DNA of 14,736 nucleotides from Candidatus Latescibacterota bacterium (GTDB lineage: Bacteria > Latescibacterota > MVCY01), in assembly GCA_030669445.1 (NCBI GenBank), contig DAOVDP010000014.1, forward strand, positions 1 through 14,736, in the 5' to 3' direction. Shown here one piece after another: positions 5,530-14,192 of this stretch (position 1 is its first letter; every line of letters begins with the position of its first letter). The translations under genes and the position numbers were made by a program. Below the pieces are notes generated by a model. It was not told where the DNA came from and did not search any database. It saw only the letters and a list, made by a program, of their open reading frames with translations.

Positions 5530-6100
5530 CAAATTCCCGGCGGTACCAACCCACGCCGTCGTAAAAGGGGAACTTCTCCTCCCAGCAGGAGGGCACCCTG
5601 ATCTCGTGAAACTGTGACCCGGAGACATTCTCTGCGAACCACTTCTCCTGTTTACCTACATTGCCCGGATCCAGGGCGATCTGCCACTGTCCATCCAGAC
5701 TGACATTCTCTCTTGGCATCTCTTGCCTCCTGTTTTCGATTGTATCCGTGTACCCGAAATCATGGTGTGCGATTGGAATCATATACACCTGCCAGCACCT
5801 TTGCGGCATCCACGTCATGGAGTACCGATCCCGAATCTTTCCGTCAGCCAAGAGGACAAACTCTATCGGCACCGACTCACGAATGTCGGGAATGTAAGCA
5901 CGATATGTTCCTTCACCCGGCGCGATCTTGCCGATCTCCATATGTTCTTCTTGCGAGCCGAACTTGACCGCAACGCTCCCATTCACGGCCTCGGCAGCAT
6001 TCCAGATAACTAAATCCACAGCCTGTGTCAATCCTTGTGCGGTTTGGACAAAGAATACGGTGGGCTCAATCACCTTCAATTGCAAAGATGTCGTGTTCAT
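5462..6100 (-). pseudogene. Chimeric remnant: GH38 mannosidase-like N-terminus joined to a GH2 N-terminus
   Basis: The first about 125 residues from the ATG at 6100 (ribosome site GAAGGTG) resemble the leader domain of bacterial GH38-type proteins. They end in QVYMIPIAHHDFGYTDT, where the HHD motif would supply zinc ligands. Immediately after, in the same frame, the sequence becomes a GH2 start: MPRENVSLDGQWQIALDPGN and later VPSCWEEKFPFYDGVGWYRR. The GH2 part keeps its own ribosome site: AGGAGG at 5726-5731, 6 bases before an ATG at 5719. This suggests two adjacent genes (GH38 upstream of GH2), with nearly all of GH38 deleted up to the GH2 ribosome site. After GVGWYRREFDAP the frame is wrong and stops at 5462. 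Neither enzyme can be functional as read. The promoter at 6279-6307 lies upstream. Confidence 0.78.
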
Positions 6101-6371: not shown

Positions 6372-6495
6372 AGACCGAGAGGTAGGGAGCCGGGGTTCAC
6401 CCGGTTGGATAACTACTTCACAGACTCAAATATTTGATAGTTATCAGTATCTAACGGGGTGCTCCCCGGCCGGTACGGGAGATTGCCTAACAAAT

Positions 6496-6523
6496 TAGGG
6501 GCGACCACGGAGGGTCGCCCCTA
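6496..6523. repeat. GGGGCGACC hairpin repeat, copy 1
   Basis: Perfect arms of 11 bp (6496-6506 and 6513-6523) enclose the loop ACGGAG. The same unit recurs at 8347-8368, and a truncated right half (CCCCTACAGATTC) recurs at 7331-7343. The trailing AGATTCTTTCT is shared by all three. This is a dispersed palindromic family that sits at the breakpoints of gene remnants in this window. Confidence 0.65.
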
Positions 6524-6637
6524 TAGATTCTTTCTCTTCTCTGTTTTTCTGCGTTTCAGCGGTCCTTTCAGCGCTTCAGTGTTACCTGATCAGCGCCGTC
6601 TTCCGCGTCTGGACGAGCTGGCCGTCAACCTTCGGCG
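6517..6637. repeat. Direct repeat of 121 bp, copy 1
   Basis: This segment matches 7330-7450 without gaps at a constant offset of 813 bp, with about 14 differences counted by eye. It covers the end of the hairpin repeat, a T-rich stretch and the last codons of a minus-strand gene tail. Together with copy 2 it brackets the retropepsin-like gene. Confidence 0.75.
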
Positions 6638-7478: not shown

Positions 7479-7505
7479 CGGGTTCGCTGTGTTTAACCCA
7501 ACCTA
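7477..7505. repeat. Short inverted repeat, copy 2
   Basis: Arms 7477-7484 and 7495-7502, with one mismatch, match the element at 6342-6371, including the trailing CTAC. On the minus strand its edge supplies the TAG stop codon of the 35-residue membrane peptide, and its other edge meets the sorting-tail remnant. Confidence 0.6.
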
Positions 7506-7610
7506 CGAAACTTTCGTTTTTCGGCTGTGCGATCCGCCCCAGACCGTCACCAGGATCATAAGCAGGAAGGCCAGCGCTATGTTTACCAGGGCGGTAATTC
7601 TCCAGATCAT
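7503..7610 (-). CDS. Small single-pass membrane peptide, 35 residues, coupled to the response regulator
   Basis: The ATG (7608-7610) overlaps the TGA stop (7607-7609) of the response regulator in an ATGA arrangement, the usual sign of translational coupling. The peptide reads MIWRITALVNIALAFLLMIL, then VTVWGGSHSRKTKVS and TAG. It has one strongly hydrophobic helix (about residues 5-25) followed by a short basic tail. A GGA lies 10 bases before the start. The stop codon comes from the edge of a dispersed repeat, so the gene may be a shortened form of a longer membrane protein. I do not recognise a family. If real, it would sit in the inner membrane with the basic end in the cytoplasm and could be a partner of the regulator. 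Confidence 0.5.
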   Translation of the reverse strand: MIWRITALVNIALAFLLMILVTVWGGSHSRKTKVS

Positions 7611-8023
7611 CGGGACTTGTTCCTTTGTTCGAGGCGACTGCAGACCTCAATAACAGAGAGCACCTGTATCAGATACTTCAGGTCGAGAGGTTTAGGGATG
7701 AACTTAAACGCGCCCAACTCCAGGCTTCTTTTGGCGTCTTCCTCTGCTGTTCCTCGGCCGGACATCATTATTACCGGCACCTTGGGGTATTGCTGCTTGA
7801 TTATCTGCAGCAGTTGGAATCCATTTGTCCCTGGCATCTCAATGTCGGAGAGGACCACAAGTGGGGTCCCCTTTCTCAGTATCTCGAGAGCCTCCCGGGC
7901 CCCGCAAGCAATGATTGTCTGATACTCCCAGTGGTCGAGGAGGTCCTCCAACATGGAACATATGTGTTCATCATCATCCACAATCAGAACAGTTACTTTT
8001 CCCCTTGGAGTCCTTTGCACCAT
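7607..8023 (-). CDS. Single-domain response regulator (CheY-like receiver)
   Basis: This 138-residue protein is almost entirely a receiver domain: VLIVDDDEH (acidic pocket D16-D18), phospho-acceptor Asp60 in VVLSDIEMPG, Ser88 in VIMMSGRG, and Lys111 in FIPKPLD. All the conserved positions are intact. There is no DNA-binding or enzymatic output domain, so it should act as a phosphorelay intermediate or by protein contact. The ATG at 8023 has only a weak purine-rich site (GAGAAGAAAA) upstream. A sigma-70 promoter at 8179-8207 lies upstream, and a sigma-54 promoter at 8553-8568 could also read into it. It overlaps the start of a 35-residue membrane peptide downstream. The cognate kinase may be the one encoded at 10908-12671. 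Confidence 0.88.
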   Translation of the reverse strand: MVQRTPRGKVTVLIVDDDEHICSMLEDLLDHWEYQTIIACGAREALEILRKGTPLVVLSDIEMPGTNGFQLLQIIKQQYPKVPVIMMSGRGTAEEDAKRSLELGAFKFIPKPLDLKYLIQVLSVIEVCSRLEQRNKSR

Positions 8024-8178
8024 ATTTTCTTCTCTTTGTACACTTTGCCCCCTGAATCAACAGAAAGGAGAAGCAGTTGGCATCTCTCCACTGATCTAGG
8101 GATGACAAACAGTTCCTTATTTCCCCTCTCTTTCCCTATTGTCTGTCTCCTCTTGCTCAGGCCTGGTCTTATGTTCCA

Positions 8179-8225
8179 AGAATAGGCGAAGGGTCCGAGC
8201 CTGTCAAGCACTAGAAGCCTTCGCC
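8179..8225 (-). promoter_or_regulatory. Sigma-70 promoter of the response regulator, with inverted repeat around the -35 box
   Basis: On the minus strand TTGACA (8202-8207) and TATTCT (8179-8184) are 17 bases apart, giving a start near 8172 and a leader of about 150 bases. The arms GGCGAAGG (8185-8192) and CCTTCGCC (8218-8225) form an inverted repeat enclosing the -35 box. It may be an operator, or a weak terminator hairpin without a good T run. Confidence 0.6.
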
Positions 8226-8323
8226 CTTTAACCAGGCATCGAGAGGAGTTTTTGGGCGCCCGGCCTTTTTGTTAGCTATGAGGTGGTTTCTTTTCAAGTT
8301 GCGGCAAGGACCTGGTATGGGTC

Positions 8324-8419
8324 CTAACTCTTGGGGAAACCTCCTGGGCGACCACGGAGGGTCGTCCCTACAGATTCTTTCTCCCCCCAACCTCCCTTTT
8401 TCTCCGCGGATTCTGCCAT
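8324..8419 (-). pseudogene. Truncated copy of a response-regulator start (31 codons)
   Basis: From an ATG at 8419, with GGAG 8 bases upstream, the frame reads MAESAEKKGGWGEKE and ends at 8324 after 31 codons. Both the leader and the first codons resemble the start of the response regulator at 9422 (MAKSVEKKGSQG). The similarity covers roughly 8390-8475 against 9390-9475. The copy breaks off where the GGGCGACC hairpin repeat begins. It is the first open frame after the sigma-54 promoter, but is unlikely to make a functional receiver. Confidence 0.6.
8347..8368. repeat. GGGCGACC hairpin repeat, copy 2
   Basis: Arms 8347-8354 and 8361-8368 with the loop ACGGAG pair with one G-T. It is followed by the same CTACAGATTCTTTCT as at 6521. 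It marks the break in the truncated response-regulator copy. Confidence 0.6.
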
Positions 8420-8440
8420 CCGAGTTTCTCCTCTGAACAC

Positions 8441-8460
8441 TGTGGCCCTTAAGGGCCACA
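8441..8460. promoter_or_regulatory. Perfect 20-bp palindrome in the leader of the truncated regulator copy
   Basis: TGTGGCCCTTAAGGGCCACA is a perfect palindrome with no central spacer, lying between the sigma-54 promoter and the ATG at 8419. The matching place upstream of the intact regulator has lost the symmetry. It could be an operator or an RNA hairpin; no T run follows. Confidence 0.4.
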
Positions 8461-8552
8461 TTAAACCGAACCTTGCCAAATTATCTTATCAACAGAGTCG
8501 AACCATGCCAGGAGGAAATCCCTCGCTGTTCGTCTGTGTGGCGTGAAAGGGC

Positions 8553-8568
8553 AGCAACTTTCGTGCCA
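8553..8568 (-). promoter_or_regulatory. Sigma-54 (RpoN) -24/-12 promoter
   Basis: The minus strand reads TGGCACGAAAGTTGCT. This matches every fixed position of the sigma-54 consensus, with GG and GC separated by exactly 10 bases. Transcription would start near 8543 and run left through the truncated regulator copy towards the response regulator at 8023. A terminator lies just upstream, and three repeated sites at 8676-8849 sit about 140, 220 and 300 bases upstream, as expected for activator enhancers. Confidence 0.75.
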
Positions 8569-8574
8569 GATAAT

Positions 8575-8606
8575 AAAAAGGCCACTCAGTGTATCTCTAA
8601 GTGGCC
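8575..8606 (-). terminator. Intrinsic terminator of the rpoN-kinase-NtrC-regulator operon
   Basis: GGCCACT (8580-8586) and AGTGGCC (8600-8606) form a perfect 7-bp stem, followed on the minus strand by TTTTTATTA. It would stop transcripts coming from the regulator ending at 8898 and insulate the sigma-54 promoter immediately downstream. Confidence 0.75.
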
Positions 8607-8675
8607 AGTAACAATTCAGTTGTAAAAATATTTCTTTAGTCTAAAGCCTGTCTTAAAATGCCGCCAGCACAATTA

Positions 8676-8849
8676 TGTTCAATATCTGACACTCTTTTTT
8701 TTCACAATTTTCCTATCTCTCTGGCTTAAAAACAGCTATTTCCATTACTGGAACTGTTCAATATCTGACAGCGATTCCCCCCACAATTATCTTAGTTGCC
8801 TGATTCCGGTGAGGTTATCTCGATTGTCATCACTGTTCAATTTCTGGCA
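8676..8849 (-). promoter_or_regulatory. Three 16-bp sites at exact 79-bp spacing, probable activator enhancer array
   Basis: On the minus strand the sites read TGTCAGATATTGAACA (8676-8691), the identical TGTCAGATATTGAACA (8755-8770) and TGCCAGAAATTGAACA (8834-8849). The start-to-start distance is 79 bp both times. The sequence between sites is largely different, apart from a shared CACAATT. Each site is an imperfect palindrome (TGT-N10-ACA in two of the three). Their place upstream of a sigma-54 promoter and next to an NtrC-type gene suggests activator binding sites. Confidence 0.6.
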
Positions 8850-8897
8850 CCAAGCAGCGACCAACATGAAATCGGTAACCACAAAACCTTTGTATCC

Positions 8898-9422
8898 CTA
8901 TTGGCAACTCACCGTAGCGTCCGATGTTACATCGCACCCATGTCTCTTCCTGTCTAATTTTCTCATCAGCCTTTCTTCTCTGCGATGATTTTGATCTGTT
9001 TTCCCCTTTCTCTTTGACCCTATCTCCCTCTTCATAAGCGTTCTCTCAATGCGTTCTCTTGCTTCGCTCTTCAGAAATTGCGATTTGGTGAGGTAGTCCG
9101 CTGCCTCTGCCTTCATAGCCTGTATGGCTGTCTGAACCGAACTGTATCCGGTTACCACGATGACCGGCAGCGTTGATCTCATCTGCTTTAGGGTCTTAAG
9201 TAGATCTATGCCGTTCATACCCGGCATCCAGATATCTGTGATCACCAGATCAAAATCTGCTCCGCCTACCAATTGGATAGCCTGTGCCGCACTGGTAGTA
9301 GTGGTGACCGTGTAACCCCACGCTCTCAAGATATCAGCGTAGACCTCTACGAAATCTCTCTCATTGTCCACTAATAATATTTGTGCCCCCTGACTTCCCT
9401 TTTTCTCTACGGATTTTGCCAT
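8898..9422 (-). CDS. Response regulator with receiver domain and basic C-terminal tail
   Basis: This protein has 174 residues. The receiver spans about 12-125: ILLVDNERD (Asp19 with Glu21), phospho-acceptor Asp63 in VITDIWMPGMNG, Thr91 in VVTGYSS, and Lys113 in YLTKSQF. The Pro that normally follows this Lys is replaced by Ser. After the receiver comes a highly basic tail of about 45 residues (KREIGSKRKGK, RREERLMRKLDRKRHG) with no recognisable output domain; it could touch nucleic acid or be the result of truncation. The ATG at 9422 is preferred (GGAGG 10 bases upstream) over the longer frame from 9461. The gene follows the NtrC-type gene by about 60 bases and is the last of the operon before the terminator at 8575-8606. 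Confidence 0.85.
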   Translation of the reverse strand: MAKSVEKKGSQGAQILLVDNERDFVEVYADILRAWGYTVTTTTSAAQAIQLVGGADFDLVITDIWMPGMNGIDLLKTLKQMRSTLPVIVVTGYSSVQTAIQAMKAEAADYLTKSQFLKSEARERIERTLMKREIGSKRKGKTDQNHRREERLMRKLDRKRHGCDVTSDATVSCQ

Positions 9423-9480
9423 CCGAGTTTTTCCTCCGAACATCTCCTTAAAGGTTAGCACTAAACCAAAACTTGATCCG

Positions 9481-10845
9481 TTAACTCTTATTCAACGCGT
9501 ACTTCTTTATCTTGTTGTAGAGGGTTCCCCGACTTATCCGGAGCAGGGTGGCAGATTTACTCAGGTTCCAACCAGTTTCCCCCAAGGCCTTAAGTATCAA
9601 TATCCTTTCTGCTTCGGGCAGGGATTTTGAACTCAATCTCAGGGTAAATCCTTCGGCCTCATCAGCATTTTTTAACTCGGGGGGCAGATCGGCTGGTTTT
9701 ATGATATCACTCCCAGATAAGACAACTGCCCTTTCCATGTAATTCCTCAACTCCCTCACATTTCCCGGCCAGTGATAGGGCAGCATCAGATCGAGGGCAT
9801 CATCGGATATCCCCTCAATTCTCTTGTGAGTTTCCTTAGCGAATATCCTAAGAAAATAGTTTGTCAGAATGGGGATGTCTTCTTTTCTTTCTCTCAGAGG
9901 CGGTATATGAATGGGAACGACGTTCAGACGATGGAACAAATCCTCCCGGAATCTCTTCTCTCTGATGGCTTTTTCCAGATCCTGATTGCTCGCTGAGATG
10001 AGTCTAATATCAACCTTGATTGTCTCTGTTCCGCCTACTCTTTCAAACTCCATTGCCTGCAAAACCCGGAGCAGCTTTGCCTGGGTAGAGAGGGGGATGT
10101 CGCCGATTTGATCCAGAAACAGGGTTCCTTTATCGGCCAATTCAAACCTGCCTTTCCTCTGAGTAAAAGCAGAGGTAAAGGCACCTTTCTCATGACCAAA
10201 AAGCTCGCTTTCCAGAACACCATCAGGAAGAGAGGCACAGCTCACTTTGATAAATGGCCTGTTCTTGCGAGGACTGGAATAATGGATGACATGTGCTAAA
10301 AGCTCCTTCCCGGTGCCACTTTCCCCGGTCAGCAGCACTGATGAGTTCGTCGGAGCAATGGTCTTTATCCTCTCAAATATTGCCTGCATCGCCGACGCCC
10401 TTCCCACAATATTATCAAAATGATAATTTTTGCTCAGCGTCTCCTGGAAATATATATTGTTTTCTAATAGGTTCTTACGTTCCAGTATCCGGTCGACTAT
10501 CTGGAGGATTTCATCAGGGTTAAAGGGTTTCAAAATGTAATTATAGGCGCCTTTTCTTGTAGCATCAATGGCGTTCTTTATAGTGCCATAGCCCGTTAGC
10601 ATGACGAACATTGTCCAGGGATACTCTTCTTTTACTCGCTCTAAAAGCTTCATACCATCCATCCCCGGCATCTTCAGATCAGTTACTGTCAAATCAAAAG
10701 GGGCGTTCCCCCGGAGGATCTCTAAGGCCTCCAACCCACCTGTTGCAATAGAGACAGCATGTCCCTTGCCTCTCAGGATATCCCCCAGTGTCTCCAGCAT
10801 ATTGACCTCATCGTCAACTAACAAGATCCTCAGTCTGTCACTCAT
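9481..10845 (-). CDS. NtrC-family sigma-54-dependent response regulator
   Basis: This 454-residue activator has three domains. The receiver (1-120) has Asp11, Asp12, phospho-acceptor Asp56 (VTDLKMPG), Thr84 and Lys106. The AAA+ domain (about 145-385) has Walker A GESGTGKE (174-181), ELFGHEKGAFTSA, and the arginine-finger region FREDLFHRLNVVPIHIPPLR. A Fis-type helix-turn-helix follows (about 410-450, WNLSKSATLLRISRGTLYNK). Two things are odd. The sigma-54 contact loop is GAFTSA rather than GAFTGA, and Walker B reads TLFLDQIGD with Gln246 where Glu is normal. Ser202 (VSCASL) replaces the usual Asn of NCAAL, though that change is also seen in other members. The ATG at 10845 (AGGGA 5 bases upstream) is preferred over GTG at 10872. 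It lies about 60 bases after the kinase gene, its likely partner. Confidence 0.93.
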   Translation of the reverse strand: MSDRLRILLVDDEVNMLETLGDILRGKGHAVSIATGGLEALEILRGNAPFDLTVTDLKMPGMDGMKLLERVKEEYPWTMFVMLTGYGTIKNAIDATRKGAYNYILKPFNPDEILQIVDRILERKNLLENNIYFQETLSKNYHFDNIVGRASAMQAIFERIKTIAPTNSSVLLTGESGTGKELLAHVIHYSSPRKNRPFIKVSCASLPDGVLESELFGHEKGAFTSAFTQRKGRFELADKGTLFLDQIGDIPLSTQAKLLRVLQAMEFERVGGTETIKVDIRLISASNQDLEKAIREKRFREDLFHRLNVVPIHIPPLRERKEDIPILTNYFLRIFAKETHKRIEGISDDALDLMLPYHWPGNVRELRNYMERAVVLSGSDIIKPADLPPELKNADEAEGFTLRLSSKSLPEAERILILKALGETGWNLSKSATLLRISRGTLYNKIKKYALNKS

Positions 10846-10907: not shown

Positions 10908-12671
10908 TTACGCTCTCGTGGGCAGTCTCAAGGTAACAATCGTTCCCTTCTCTTTCCTATTCTCAATGGTTATATCCCCTCCGAATTTTTTGACAGTTGA
11001 ATAACCAAGGGATAGTCCTAACCCCGTTCCGGACTCTTTAGTAGTGAAGAAAGGGTCAAAGACATCCCCCAGCACCTCTTCTGGGATGCCCATCCCGGTA
11101 TCTTCGAAGACGATCTCTATAGAATCCTTTTGTTGTTCAGTGGCATCTGCAGGCACCGACTTGGTAGCTACCCTCAAGCTGCCGCCGTCGGGCATCGCCT
11201 GAGTTGCGTTGAGGATGATGTTCAGGAAGGCCTGTTTTATCTCGTCAAGGTTCAGAAATATAGCAGGCAATCGTCTTAGATTCAACTCTAAGCTGATATC
11301 ATTGACTCGAAGCTCTTTCTCCACCAGACTCAGGGTCATCTCCAGCAGTTCATTAATATCAACTTCCGCTAATTCATACTCTGAACTCCTGGAAAATTGT
11401 AGCAGATTTTCGATCACTCTTGTGGCTCGCTCCACCTCAGATTCCATGATCTTGAGGTGCTTCCGGACCTCTGGCCTTTCAGATTTCAGGATATCTTTAA
11501 TGTAACATAGGGATACATTTATAATTCCTAGGGGATTTCTGACCTCGTGGGCGACTCCTGCTGCTAGCTGCCCTAATCCGGCCAATTTTTGAGCCTGTGC
11601 AAGAGACCGCTGGGTTTTCGCCAACTCATCGTTTTTCTGCTTCACCTGTTGATCCAGCAAGTGACTGAGCTCTCTGGTCTCAGAGTGAAGTCGGGCGTTT
11701 TCTATTGCCACAGCGATCTTCTCGCCCAGCAAACGTAGCAACACCCGTTCTCCTTCACTTAAGCTATCAGGCCCCGTGCTCCCTACTATAAGAACTCCCA
11801 TCACAGTATCCTGTGTTCGGATAGGGATACCAGCAATTACCTTAATCCCCCTTTTCCTGTCGTCTTGGGGAATTCTCAGTACACCCTCGAGAGCTACTCT
11901 AACAGCAACTGGCTTCCCTTCTCTAATCACTCTCCAGACGATGCCGTTCTTTCTGGGCTTTGCGGGCTGGTAATGCAAACCCAGTCCTGGTTTTGAACTC
12001 ACCACAGCTTCCCGGAGTTCCTCTCCCTTAGCATCTAATAACCAGATGATGGCACGTTGACTGTTAGTGATCTCAATAGCGCTATCTGTGATCAGTTTAA
12101 GCATTCTGGTCATATCATGGGTCTTGTCGATGACCTGGCAGATCTCACAGAGTTCTTCCGCTGCCAACACAAGTCCCTTGCACTCGGTTATGTCGGCCAT
12201 ATTGCCTAATAAGGCCGGTTTCCCATCATATTGGATAATCACTGGCGTAAGTTGCGCCCATCTCAGCTCGTCGTCCTTTCGTATGTATTTGAACTCCGGT
12301 CTTGGAGGTGCGTCGGAAATATCGCCGGTTAAGACTCTATTCGTTGATCTCTCTATCTCATCTTTATGATCAGGATGTATGATATCCAGATAATTCATGC
12401 TCATCAATTCCTCAGCGGAGTATCCTGTTAGAGCCTCCATAGTCCCGTTTACAAACTTGAATTTCCCCTCCTGAAAGATGTAGATCCCGTCGGTAGACTT
12501 CTCCACAATAACCCTGCAGATCTCTGCCGCCCTCTGCTGTGTCCAATCGTGTGTTCCTGGCGGACAGGATTTCATCTTCGTTGTCAATTTTCCCTCGAAT
12601 ATCTTTCTATTTGCAGAATAGACAGGGACAGTATACCAACTACCGCTGGGTTTAAGAAGTCTATATTTCAT
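10908..12671 (-). CDS. PAS-GAF sensor histidine kinase (NtrB-like)
   Basis: This 587-residue kinase has no clear transmembrane segment, so it is probably cytoplasmic. A PAS domain spans about 48-165 (IYIFQEGKFKFVNGTMEALT, ending LLGNMADITE), and a GAF domain about 175-325. A coiled region (about 330-362) leads to the dimerisation domain with the phospho-acceptor His375 in AAGVAHEVRNPLG. The ATPase domain keeps the N box (FLNIILNATQAMPDGG, N484/N488), G1 (EDTGMGIPEE), the F box (DPFFTTKESG) and G2 (GTGLGLSL). The start is placed at the ATG at 12671, where AAGGA and GGAGG lie upstream; the longer frame to 12737 begins with TTG and has no ribosome site. The first about 45 residues match nothing I know. 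It should phosphorylate the NtrC-type protein directly downstream and perhaps the two receiver proteins. The signal is unknown. Confidence 0.92.
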   Translation of the reverse strand: MKYRLLKPSGSWYTVPVYSANRKIFEGKLTTKMKSCPPGTHDWTQQRAAEICRVIVEKSTDGIYIFQEGKFKFVNGTMEALTGYSAEELMSMNYLDIIHPDHKDEIERSTNRVLTGDISDAPPRPEFKYIRKDDELRWAQLTPVIIQYDGKPALLGNMADITECKGLVLAAEELCEICQVIDKTHDMTRMLKLITDSAIEITNSQRAIIWLLDAKGEELREAVVSSKPGLGLHYQPAKPRKNGIVWRVIREGKPVAVRVALEGVLRIPQDDRKRGIKVIAGIPIRTQDTVMGVLIVGSTGPDSLSEGERVLLRLLGEKIAVAIENARLHSETRELSHLLDQQVKQKNDELAKTQRSLAQAQKLAGLGQLAAGVAHEVRNPLGIINVSLCYIKDILKSERPEVRKHLKIMESEVERATRVIENLLQFSRSSEYELAEVDINELLEMTLSLVEKELRVNDISLELNLRRLPAIFLNLDEIKQAFLNIILNATQAMPDGGSLRVATKSVPADATEQQKDSIEIVFEDTGMGIPEEVLGDVFDPFFTTKESGTGLGLSLGYSTVKKFGGDITIENRKEKGTIVTLRLPTRA

Positions 12672-12694
12672 TAGGCAATCCTTTCCTCCGTAGT

Positions 12695-12720
12695 GCCGAC
12701 GGGAAGGGATTCCCGGCGGC
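12695..12720. other. Strong hairpin just before the kinase ribosome site
   Basis: Arms 12695-12705 and 12710-12720 (GCCGACGGGAA and its near-perfect complement, one mismatch) enclose a 4-base loop. It stands in the 105-base gap between rpoN and the kinase, immediately upstream of GGAGG (12686-12690 region). With no T run it is not a terminator. It may lower or uncouple kinase translation, or stabilise a processed mRNA end. Confidence 0.45.
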
Positions 12721-12776
12721 CTCGGCAAGTCGAACAACAGTGAAGAGAGGAATTAACTACGTTGAATCCAGAGAGT

Positions 12777-14192
12777 TCAGAATTTTCTCCGGTAAGCAGT
12801 AGGGGGAATGCGCATTCTGTTCCGGTACTTAGCGACTGTGCGCCTGGCTATATTGAAGCCCTCTTTGTTCAGCAGTTCAACGATCTGCTGGTCGCTCAGG
12901 GGACTTTGACTATCCTCTGCCTCTATTAGCTCTCTTATTCTCTCCATCATTCTCTTGGCGGAGATGCCCTCACCAGAAACAGAGCTAATCTTGCTGTCAA
13001 AAAAGTATTTCAGCTCGAAGATCCCGTGGGGAGCTTGCACATACTTCCCATTGGTCACCCGGCTGATGGTTGAGGGGTGAAGTTCCAGGGAATCGGCTGC
13101 CTCCTGGAGCACCATCGGTTTCAGGCCCGAAACCCCCTGGTCAAAGAAATCCCGCTGTCGCTTGACGATAAACTTCATTAACCTTAACATAGTGGAGCGT
13201 CTCTGTTCGATGGTTCTGATCAGCCAACGGGCAGAATTCAGCCTTTCCAGCACATATTTGCGCTCTTCTTCGGAGGTCTTACCCCCTTTCAACAACGAGA
13301 GGTAGCGGCGATTAATCCTCAGAGTGGGAATGGACCTGTCGTTAAGCATCACCACATATTTATCGTCCATTTTCTTCACAATCAGATCGGGAGTTATCTG
13401 CCTTGCCTCAGATCCAAAAGCGGCAGCGGCTGGCTTGGGAGTTAACCCGGAGATTACCTTGAGTGCTTCTCGAATCTCCCCCTCAGTGAGCTTCAGAGAT
13501 TCTGCAATCTTGCGGTAGTGATGTCTCTTCAAATCCTCCAACCGGGATTGCACGATTCTCATAACCGGGCTATCTTGCCTGCCTTGTTCCCGGAGTTGAA
13601 TCATAAGACACTCTCGGAGGTCTCTGGCCCCTACCCCTGAGGGGTCAAAGGCCTGGATGGTCTCCAGCACCCTTTCCACCTCTGTCTCTGGGACATTCAA
13701 GGTTGACGCTATCTGCTGCACCGGACAGACCAAATATCCATCCTCATCGATATTTCCGATAATGGCCTCTCCGATCCTAAGCTCCTCCGGAGAAGAGAAG
13801 GCGATTCGGAGCTGTTGAAGCAGGTGGTCTGCCAGAGAAGCTTGGCTGACAACAACCGGCTGCTGTCTATCTTCGTCAAGGTCACCCCCCTGTCGCATAG
13901 GATAGCCCATCTCATATCCGGCGGCAAGATATTCGCTCCAGTCCACCTCATCGAAGTCAGAATCAAGCTCCTTCTCTTCTTCGGGTTCTTCCTCTTCCTC
14001 CGAAGATAGACCCTCTTCTTGTTCCTCTGATTCCTCCTTGGGAAGCTCCTCCAGCATTGGATTTAGCTCCAGTTGCTGTCTTATCACCTGTTCCAGCTCC
14101 AAGGTTGGCAGTTGGAGAAGCTGAAGAGACTGTATCTGCTGCTGGGAGAGTCGTTGCTGGAGCTGCAATTTTTGATCTAATCTTTGAAGCAT
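12777..14192 (-). CDS. rpoN: RNA polymerase sigma-54 factor RpoN
   Basis: At 471 residues it has the normal family length. Region I (1-50) is Gln/Leu-rich, LQQRLSQQQIQSLQLLQL, and contacts activators and the -12 element. An acidic region II follows (about 52-85, runs of Glu and Asp). The core-binding region spans about 110-300, with LTPKPAAAAFG (250-260) and the conserved GNIDEDGYL. The helix-turn-helix is near 362-385 (LQEAADSLELHPSTISRVTN), and the RpoN box ARRTVAKYR (449-457) reads the -24 element. The ATG at 14192 has GGGTGA upstream. The gene lies 67 bases after lptB, a widespread pairing. Downstream comes a kinase/NtrC pair instead of the hpf and ptsN genes common in Proteobacteria. A matching -24/-12 promoter is present at 8553-8568. 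Confidence 0.97.
   Translation of the reverse strand: MLQRLDQKLQLQQRLSQQQIQSLQLLQLPTLELEQVIRQQLELNPMLEELPKEESEEQEEGLSSEEEEEPEEEKELDSDFDEVDWSEYLAAGYEMGYPMRQGGDLDEDRQQPVVVSQASLADHLLQQLRIAFSSPEELRIGEAIIGNIDEDGYLVCPVQQIASTLNVPETEVERVLETIQAFDPSGVGARDLRECLMIQLREQGRQDSPVMRIVQSRLEDLKRHHYRKIAESLKLTEGEIREALKVISGLTPKPAAAAFGSEARQITPDLIVKKMDDKYVVMLNDRSIPTLRINRRYLSLLKGGKTSEEERKYVLERLNSARWLIRTIEQRRSTMLRLMKFIVKRQRDFFDQGVSGLKPMVLQEAADSLELHPSTISRVTNGKYVQAPHGIFELKYFFDSKISSVSGEGISAKRMMERIRELIEAEDSQSPLSDQQIVELLNKEGFNIARRTVAKYRNRMRIPPTAYRRKF

Follow-up and report, generated by a model that had tools for sequence, protein, structure and literature searches.

Genes of the locus

On the minus strand of the window, that is, the whole stretch of 14,736 nucleotides that was analysed, lie rpoN, which encodes sigma-54 (12777–14192; TIGR02395, 445 bits against a cut-off of 277), the gene of a histidine kinase with PAS, GAF, HisKA and HATPase_c domain matches (10908–12737), the gene of an NtrC-type enhancer-binding response regulator (9481–10845), and RR1, which encodes a single-domain response regulator (8898–9422, ATG at 9422). 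The preliminary description had reported rpoN and an NtrC-type gene here, and both are found in place, the first by TIGR02395 above cut-off and the second by Response_reg, Sigma54_activat and HTH_8 matches. The histidine kinase is the probable partner of the NtrC protein. Past RR1, on the same strand, is a conserved cassette of about 335 bp (8525–8859) that runs from three enhancer sites through a sigma-54 promoter and recurs in the genus as nine further copies, paralogous or orthologous.

The window is the entire contig C189 of genome G000, a 1.29-Mb MAG that is 62% complete. Five genomes, G000 to G004, make up the genus set; G001 is 57%, G002 90% and G004 67% complete. Since the genomes are incomplete, the absence of a cassette or gene can come from MAG gaps.

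The first full-length gene past the promoter is RR2 (7607–8023, minus strand), encoding another single-domain response regulator, about 520 nt from the expected transcription start. A 31-codon relic (8324–8419, minus strand) lies downstream of the promoter. Around its ribosome-binding region and start it resembles RR1, with 8383–8475 matching 9386–9475, the RR1 leader and start, at 79%; this suggests that part of RR1 was duplicated long ago. The 520-nt leader and the gene relic before RR2 make the target of the window copy uncertain, and this counts against the best explanation given below.

RR2 differs from its G003 counterpart (L150) by four non-synonymous and no synonymous changes, and ntrC next door has a dS of 0.13. 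Pieces of the window from 9442 down to 5051 are mostly 97–99% identical to G003, and the ntrC piece is 94% identical. The pattern of the RR2 region against that of ntrC suggests that this region may have been exchanged recently.

The sigma-54 promoter and the three sites

The −24/−12 element TGGCACGAAAGTTGCT is located at 8553–8568 on the minus strand, with the start expected near 8543. It had been described as a full-consensus element, and it matches TGGCAC-N5-TTGCW exactly. With two mismatches allowed the window contains three matches against 1.87 expected, and 57 of 200 shuffles reach three, so the loose matches are uninformative; the sole exact one is that at 8553. The exact pattern occurs three times in the 1.29-Mb G000 genome, and its reversed control does not occur. 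The other exact matches in G000, on C149 and C197, have no site with up to two mismatches upstream; on C197 one site match falls about 1.3 kb downstream of the −24/−12 element, within a reading frame. Consensus matches to sigma-70 promoters (three, shuffle mean 1.4, sd 1.5) are at chance level.

The three 16-bp sites on the same strand are the distal site 1, TGCCAGAAATTGAACA, at 8834–8849, site 2, TGTCAGATATTGAACA, at 8755–8770, and the promoter-proximal site 3, with the same sequence as site 2, at 8676–8691. Site 1 matches the other two at 88%. The starts at 8676, 8755 and 8834, with spacings of 79 and 79 bp, agree with those first described. Three sites with up to three mismatches were found in the window, with 0.10 expected; only one of 200 shuffles reached three. 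Their centres lie at about −140, −219 and −298 relative to the expected start near 8543. The sites have the dyad form TGYC-N8-RACA, which fits TGT-N10-ACA save that site 1 starts with TGC.

Sigma-54 promoters are reported to require an enhancer-binding protein (PMC4641369). Conserved dyads of the activator type at about 140–300 bp upstream match the UAS layout (about 80–300 bp), and binding to them is predicted. The window element is thus supported, as judged from its sequence and layout, as a putative sigma-54-dependent promoter with an enhancer array.

A cassette duplicated within the genus

A motif scan of the G000 genome identified another triple array, on C126, with sites at 99, 177 and 255. 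Between the window and C126 the likeness, at 85% identity, begins ahead of site 1, runs past the promoter and covers about 350 bp. BLAST of the cassette against 60 genomes found two copies in G000, two in G002, four in G003 and two in G004, ten in total; the remaining genomes of the 60 have none, the only match in G050 being 31 bases outside the cassette part of the query. Pairwise identity among the copies ranges from 67 to 98%.

The preliminary description proposed that the motif could be used to search for the regulon, and that sites scattered or inside genes without a sigma-54 promoter would speak against it. All 25 perfect matches in the five genus genomes fall in cassettes, before the same promoter, and these exact matches recover the ten triple arrays. 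The cassettes have 30 sites altogether, 25 exact, three with one mismatch and two with two mismatches. Matches with one mismatch number 11 in the genus, three within cassettes and eight outside; the four examined of these eight (G000 C93, C198 and C108; G001 C48) are inside ORFs and were rejected as extra regulon members. Two of the 43 two-mismatch matches are cassette sites. Zero-mismatch promoter matches in the five genus genomes are inside cassettes in nine of nine cases.

A pattern of two sites with a gap of 50–80 bp was searched in 64 phylum genomes, the five of the genus and 59 others. Its 19 matches are confined to four of the 64, the cassette-bearing ones; G001 and the 59 others have no such site pair, and the reversed control gave none. 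A profile built from the ten cassettes was also run on the five genus genomes, scoring 150 first-look candidates per genome (of 312 to 705). It returned the ten known copies and two weak matches, G003:C80 (E 0.002) and G003:C195 (E 0.125). The match in G003:C80 looks like a distant relative of the cassette with other dyads. The architecture, the copy number and the conservation and spacing of the sites can be read directly from these copies, as can, for the set of genomes searched, their confinement to the genus.

Alignment and tree divide the copies into four groups: A comprises the window and G003:C220; B, G000:C126, G003:C29, G002:C60 and G004:C153; C, G003:C45; and D, G003:C62, G004:C35 and G002:C100. 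D is split from the others with full support, and the placement of C is weak (80/74).

Conservation and spacing within the cassette

The sites and the promoter are the most conserved parts of the cassette. Across the ten aligned rows, mean identity is 0.971 for the 48 site columns (40 invariant), 0.960 for the 15 promoter columns (12 invariant) and 0.816 for the remaining 276 columns (94 invariant). Site 2 is identical in all ten copies. The promoter element is the same in the nine other cassettes, with one TGG to CGG change at the first base and one G to A change after TGGCAC; some copies read TTGT instead of TTGC. The fit to TGT-N10-ACA holds for site 2 in 10 of 10 copies, for site 3 in 9 of 10 and for site 1, with its TGC, in none.

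When the three site blocks were moved jointly along the 289 columns that precede the promoter, conservation was best at shift 0, with shifts 1 to 3 near it. Only three of 20,000 random block sets matched the zero-shift value; since the rows are related, this is a comparison within the alignment and not a probability of function. The test is not fully independent because of this relatedness, which counts against the best explanation.

The spacing is rigid. Start to start, sites 2 and 3 are 78–79 bp apart and site 3 is 123–126 bp from the promoter in all ten copies. Sites 1 and 2 are 77–79 bp apart in A, B and C and 89 bp apart in D, where 11 bp, about one helical turn, are added (89 = 78 + 11), probably in a single event. 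At 10.5 bp per turn these distances are 7.4–7.5 turns between sites 2 and 3, 11.7–12.0 between site 3 and the promoter, and 7.3–7.5 or 8.5 between sites 1 and 2; from site 1 to site 3 the separation is 14.9–16.0 turns. The idea that neighbouring sites occupy alternate faces of the DNA, raised from the window alone, is borne out by a near-half-turn offset (7.3–7.5 or 8.5 turns) in 10 of 10 copies.

A terminator-like hairpin of 10 pairs with a T run (8580–8606, minus strand) abuts the −24 element; the hairpin is followed by TTTTTATTAT, which ends against that element. Terminator-like sites in 7500–9000 number three against a shuffle mean of 1.7, a count at chance level, so the case for the hairpin rests on conservation. 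Its pairing is kept at 8–10 of 10 pairs in the seven A, B and C copies and falls to 4, 7 and 4 of 10 in the D copies. The upstream gene runs towards the promoter in A, B and C where readable, and is divergent in D. The decay in D together with the divergent gene suggests that the hairpin simply ends upstream transcription, and this is probably its role.

Loci behind the cassettes

The preliminary description set the array beside rpoN and ntrC. This adjacency is true in the window, but the array is not tied to these genes, being duplicated before other loci. Orientation to the next gene is constant in the nine copies with a readable full downstream gene. What follows the cassette is a response regulator gene in the window and, elsewhere, an ABC-export operon, a gene for a secreted protein, or a start resembling that of a membrane protein where the contig ends.

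The B copies precede the ABC-export operon in four of four array-bearing genomes, the widest-spread position. Next to the C126 copy are an ABC-type ATPase and an ABC-2 permease, followed by more ABC-like genes. Downstream are also the gene of an S8 protease-like protein, with similarity to peptide-maturation proteins (QhpE and TIGR04066, both below cut-offs), and a small frame that by eye is carrier-protein-like. The D copies precede a 263-residue protein with a signal-like start; the protein after it, scanned in two of the three genomes, has an FlgD-like tail (G003) or a lamin-tail domain (G004). The C copy is followed by the membrane-protein-like start, after which the contig ends. In the D loci (L153 5294–5564, L157) the leader ahead of the 263-residue protein has a strong ribosome-binding site and a frame of three codons, ATG AAG GGA TAA, that precedes the real gene.

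At the ntrC locus the cassette is present in two of the three genus genomes with that locus assembled (G000 and G003), and absent in G002. About 4.3 kb (window 8970–4651) with the cassette, RR2 and more genes is missing in G002 (L158 5609–5713), where the gap falls between RR1 and a sugar-isomerase-like gene; the same 4.3 kb is largely present in G003. A dispersed intergenic repeat, TAGGGGCGACCC...GTGGTCGCCC, occurs in the window at 8346–8385 and 6477–6536, in L158 at 5649–5709 and in L034 at 10432–10461. It is located at the G002 junction.

The candidate activator

The NtrC-like protein matches PF00072, PF00158 and PF02954 above cut-offs, corresponding to a receiver, an AAA+ sigma-54 interaction domain and a Fis-type HTH. 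The NCBIfam cut-offs of the equivalogs for AtoC (468 of 714 bits), NtrC of nitrogen regulation (429 of 559) and PrsR (PEP_resp_reg, 406 of 503) were missed; the PEP-CTERM regulator PrsR was considered as an identity and set aside. The L1 loop reads GAFTSA, and among the best 120 of 7,999 scored homologues 33 have GAFTSA, 48 GAFTDA and 16 the exact GAFTGA.

In the Walker B motif the catalytic glutamate is replaced by glutamine (LFLDQI), so the protein lacks the usual DE. The codon is CAA at 10108–10110 on the minus strand, Q255 of the 463-residue reading or Q246 if numbering starts at the ATG (10845). In the three best solved relatives (4l4u, 1ny5 and 3dzd) the aligned residue is the glutamate of FLDE. 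Among the best 120 of the 7,999 homologues seven have DQ and 113 DE. The seven are the closest of the 120, with 84–99% identity, and include genus genomes, e.g., G003 with its contig of 9,602 bases. Glutamate is found in the eighth homologue, at 79% identity, and in the 112 after it. Over three genomes, all with CAA, a dN/dS of 0.17–0.25 shows purifying selection on the gene. Walker A and the HTH are present, and five positions, including the Walker B glutamine, deviate from columns conserved in at least 90%. With this selection and only five off-consensus positions, ntrC does not look like a decaying gene.

Seven other activator genes have downstream sequence in the stretches read, and a −24/−12 element follows five of them. 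Two of the five, G003:C80 and G002:C53, are orthologues with CTGTCTAACC-type dyads, with an ABC operon next in G002; G000:C197 and G003:C126 are paralogues without a clear site repeat; and G002:C200 has TGTAACATA-type repeats. The window motif, with up to two mismatches, is absent upstream of all five promoters. Because activator genes of the genus often precede promoters that lack this motif, the NtrC protein is the best candidate for it. Two of the seven, G003:C195 and G000:C56, have no −24/−12 match just downstream; the habit is therefore not universal, which counts against the best explanation. The ntrC gene and cassettes occur together in G000, G002 and G003, and neither is in G001. Also on the negative side, G004 (67% complete) has two cassettes and no detected orthologue of the window NtrC, and the ntrC locus of G002 (90% complete) has no cassette. 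By position, by exclusion and by this weak co-occurrence, the strongest candidate for activating the cassettes is the NtrC-like protein encoded beside the array.

The units after G003:C80 (L199 4560–4913) and G002:C53 (L201 5264–5600) are distantly similar to the terminator-promoter part of the cassette, with different dyads.

Proposed explanation and alternatives

Taken together, the data are best read as a sigma-54 enhancer-promoter cassette of about 335 bp, copied within a single uncultivated genus of Latescibacterota type, that would place several loci under one NtrC-like activator. We put the probability of this joint reading at about 78%. The adjacent PAS-GAF kinase would phosphorylate the regulator, and each of the three dyad sites would bind one of its dimers. 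Three dimers could supply one hexamer, with the sites near a half turn off from each other and site 3 near whole turns from the −24 element. Once assembled, the ring would loop to the sigma-54 polymerase at the −24/−12 element, and the terminator against that element would shut off upstream transcription where the upstream gene is co-directional.

An activator that carries the Walker B glutamine might be hydrolysis-poor, and another activator could then drive the promoter; this too weighs against the best explanation. The corresponding engineered PspF E108Q is reported to have less than 1% ATPase activity and 30-fold tighter ATP binding and to form constitutive hexamers; it is defective on duplex DNA at ATP levels suited to the wild type, and active at low ATP and on pre-melted DNA (PMC4132715). 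The array could thus be the sigma-54 enhancer of another activator of the genus, with the adjacent NtrC as a competitor, brake or mixed-ring partner. The defect of E108Q on duplex DNA favours this, as do the cassettes of G004 with no NtrC orthologue detected, the several genus activators with an intact DE (glutamate in 15 of 15 with a readable Walker B), and the activator of G003:C80/G002:C53, which precedes the distantly similar terminator-promoter unit with CTGTCTAACC-type dyads and, in G002, the ABC transporter. These points are countered by the absence of window-like sites (up to two mismatches) before the promoters neighbouring the other activators, by the selection that maintains ntrC with its Walker A and HTH, and by the cassette adjoining ntrC in both G000 and G003, while MAG gaps can account for the absences. 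We consider this alternative unlikely, and it is the one that survives best.

Copies that are dispersed and 67–98% identical, one of which (A) occupies the ntrC locus in some genomes and not in others, might also be those of a small mobile element or a non-coding RNA gene, with the three 16-bp repeats incidental. This is very improbable, given that there are only two to four copies per cassette-bearing genome, that nine readable copies keep one orientation to the next gene, that conservation peaks at the sites and promoter, that the promoter-adjacent hairpin is terminator-like and decays in the D copies, and that the window copy has no Rfam match (E ≤ 1, window 7500–9600). Least probable of all is that the sites serve a repressor or some different regulator with no part in sigma-54 activation: the protein cannot be named from the dyads alone, but their fixed distance to the −24/−12 element in 10 of 10 copies, about 140–300 bp upstream, is an enhancer layout, and sigma-54 promoters are reported to need an enhancer-binding protein (PMC4641369).

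Returning to the NtrC-like activator, the glutamine may give slow hydrolysis and tight ATP binding. We raise tentatively, as a possibility that we judge rather less likely to be right than wrong, that this natural, fixed glutamate-to-glutamine change and the rigid three-dimer array act together, pre-assembling an ATP-locked, slowly cycling hexamer. Such a hexamer would activate or poise the sigma-54 polymerase persistently, putting the genes for export and surface proteins under a slow or latched switch. If the activator truly works with a Walker B glutamine, it bears on whether activation needs ATP hydrolysis or ATP binding.

Comparison with known systems

A literature search for Latescibacterota and sigma-54 found nothing, and the cassettes yield a sigma-54 regulon in concrete form, comprising sites, a promoter and candidate targets, in a phylum whose gene regulation is seemingly little studied. 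The kind of system is already known; the copied, rigid triple array of about 78 bp with a Walker B glutamine activator is a variant, and this combination was not found described in the literature search.

NifA is not known to be a two-component receiver protein. Its UAS, given as TGT-N10-ACA (PMC10590331), is fitted by sites 2 (10/10) and 3 (9/10) and differs from site 1 with its TGC. In Desulfovibrio most sigma-54 regulons are reported to comprise one to four operons, and the −24/−12 consensus is tGGcacg/tTGCt (PMC4641369). TGT/ACA half-sites occur in three motif groups of that account, spaced by 9, 11 or 12 compared with 10 here, and its accessible portion contains no regular triple arrays (PMC4641369).

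The Walker B change is the same residue change in the same motif as that of PspF E108Q, which is engineered, whereas in the present clade it occurs naturally and is conserved. The sources obtained in the literature search mention, in their accessible portions, no naturally occurring Walker B variants, and a search for GAFTSA variants found nothing. The NtrC of Caulobacter, also a natural NtrC-family protein, lacks the canonical GAFTGA. It has been described as a notable, atypical bEBP (PMC10274813); in the present protein, by contrast, Walker B is the odd part, and many relatives share its GAFTSA loop.

The NorR-norVW system likewise has three activator sites upstream of a single sigma-54 promoter; the three sites are reported to be needed for ATPase activity, with enhancer DNA stabilising the oligomer (PMC2941729). 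The present arrays differ in their site spacing of about 78 bp, in having been copied to several loci, and in a candidate activator that belongs to the two-component regulators and has a Walker B glutamine. In the Vibrio qrr genes, related sigma-54 enhancer-promoter units answer to one NtrC-like activator, LuxO (PMC4740811). The qrr units, as reported, have LuxO sites in tandem and small RNAs as their products; the present ones have three sites and precede protein genes. The qrr enhancers are reported to tolerate indels of about 11 bp (PMC4740811). The added 11 bp of the D group fit this tolerance, but sit between sites and not in the site-to-promoter loop. The copied cassettes offer a natural series for testing the effects of site spacing and helical phase.
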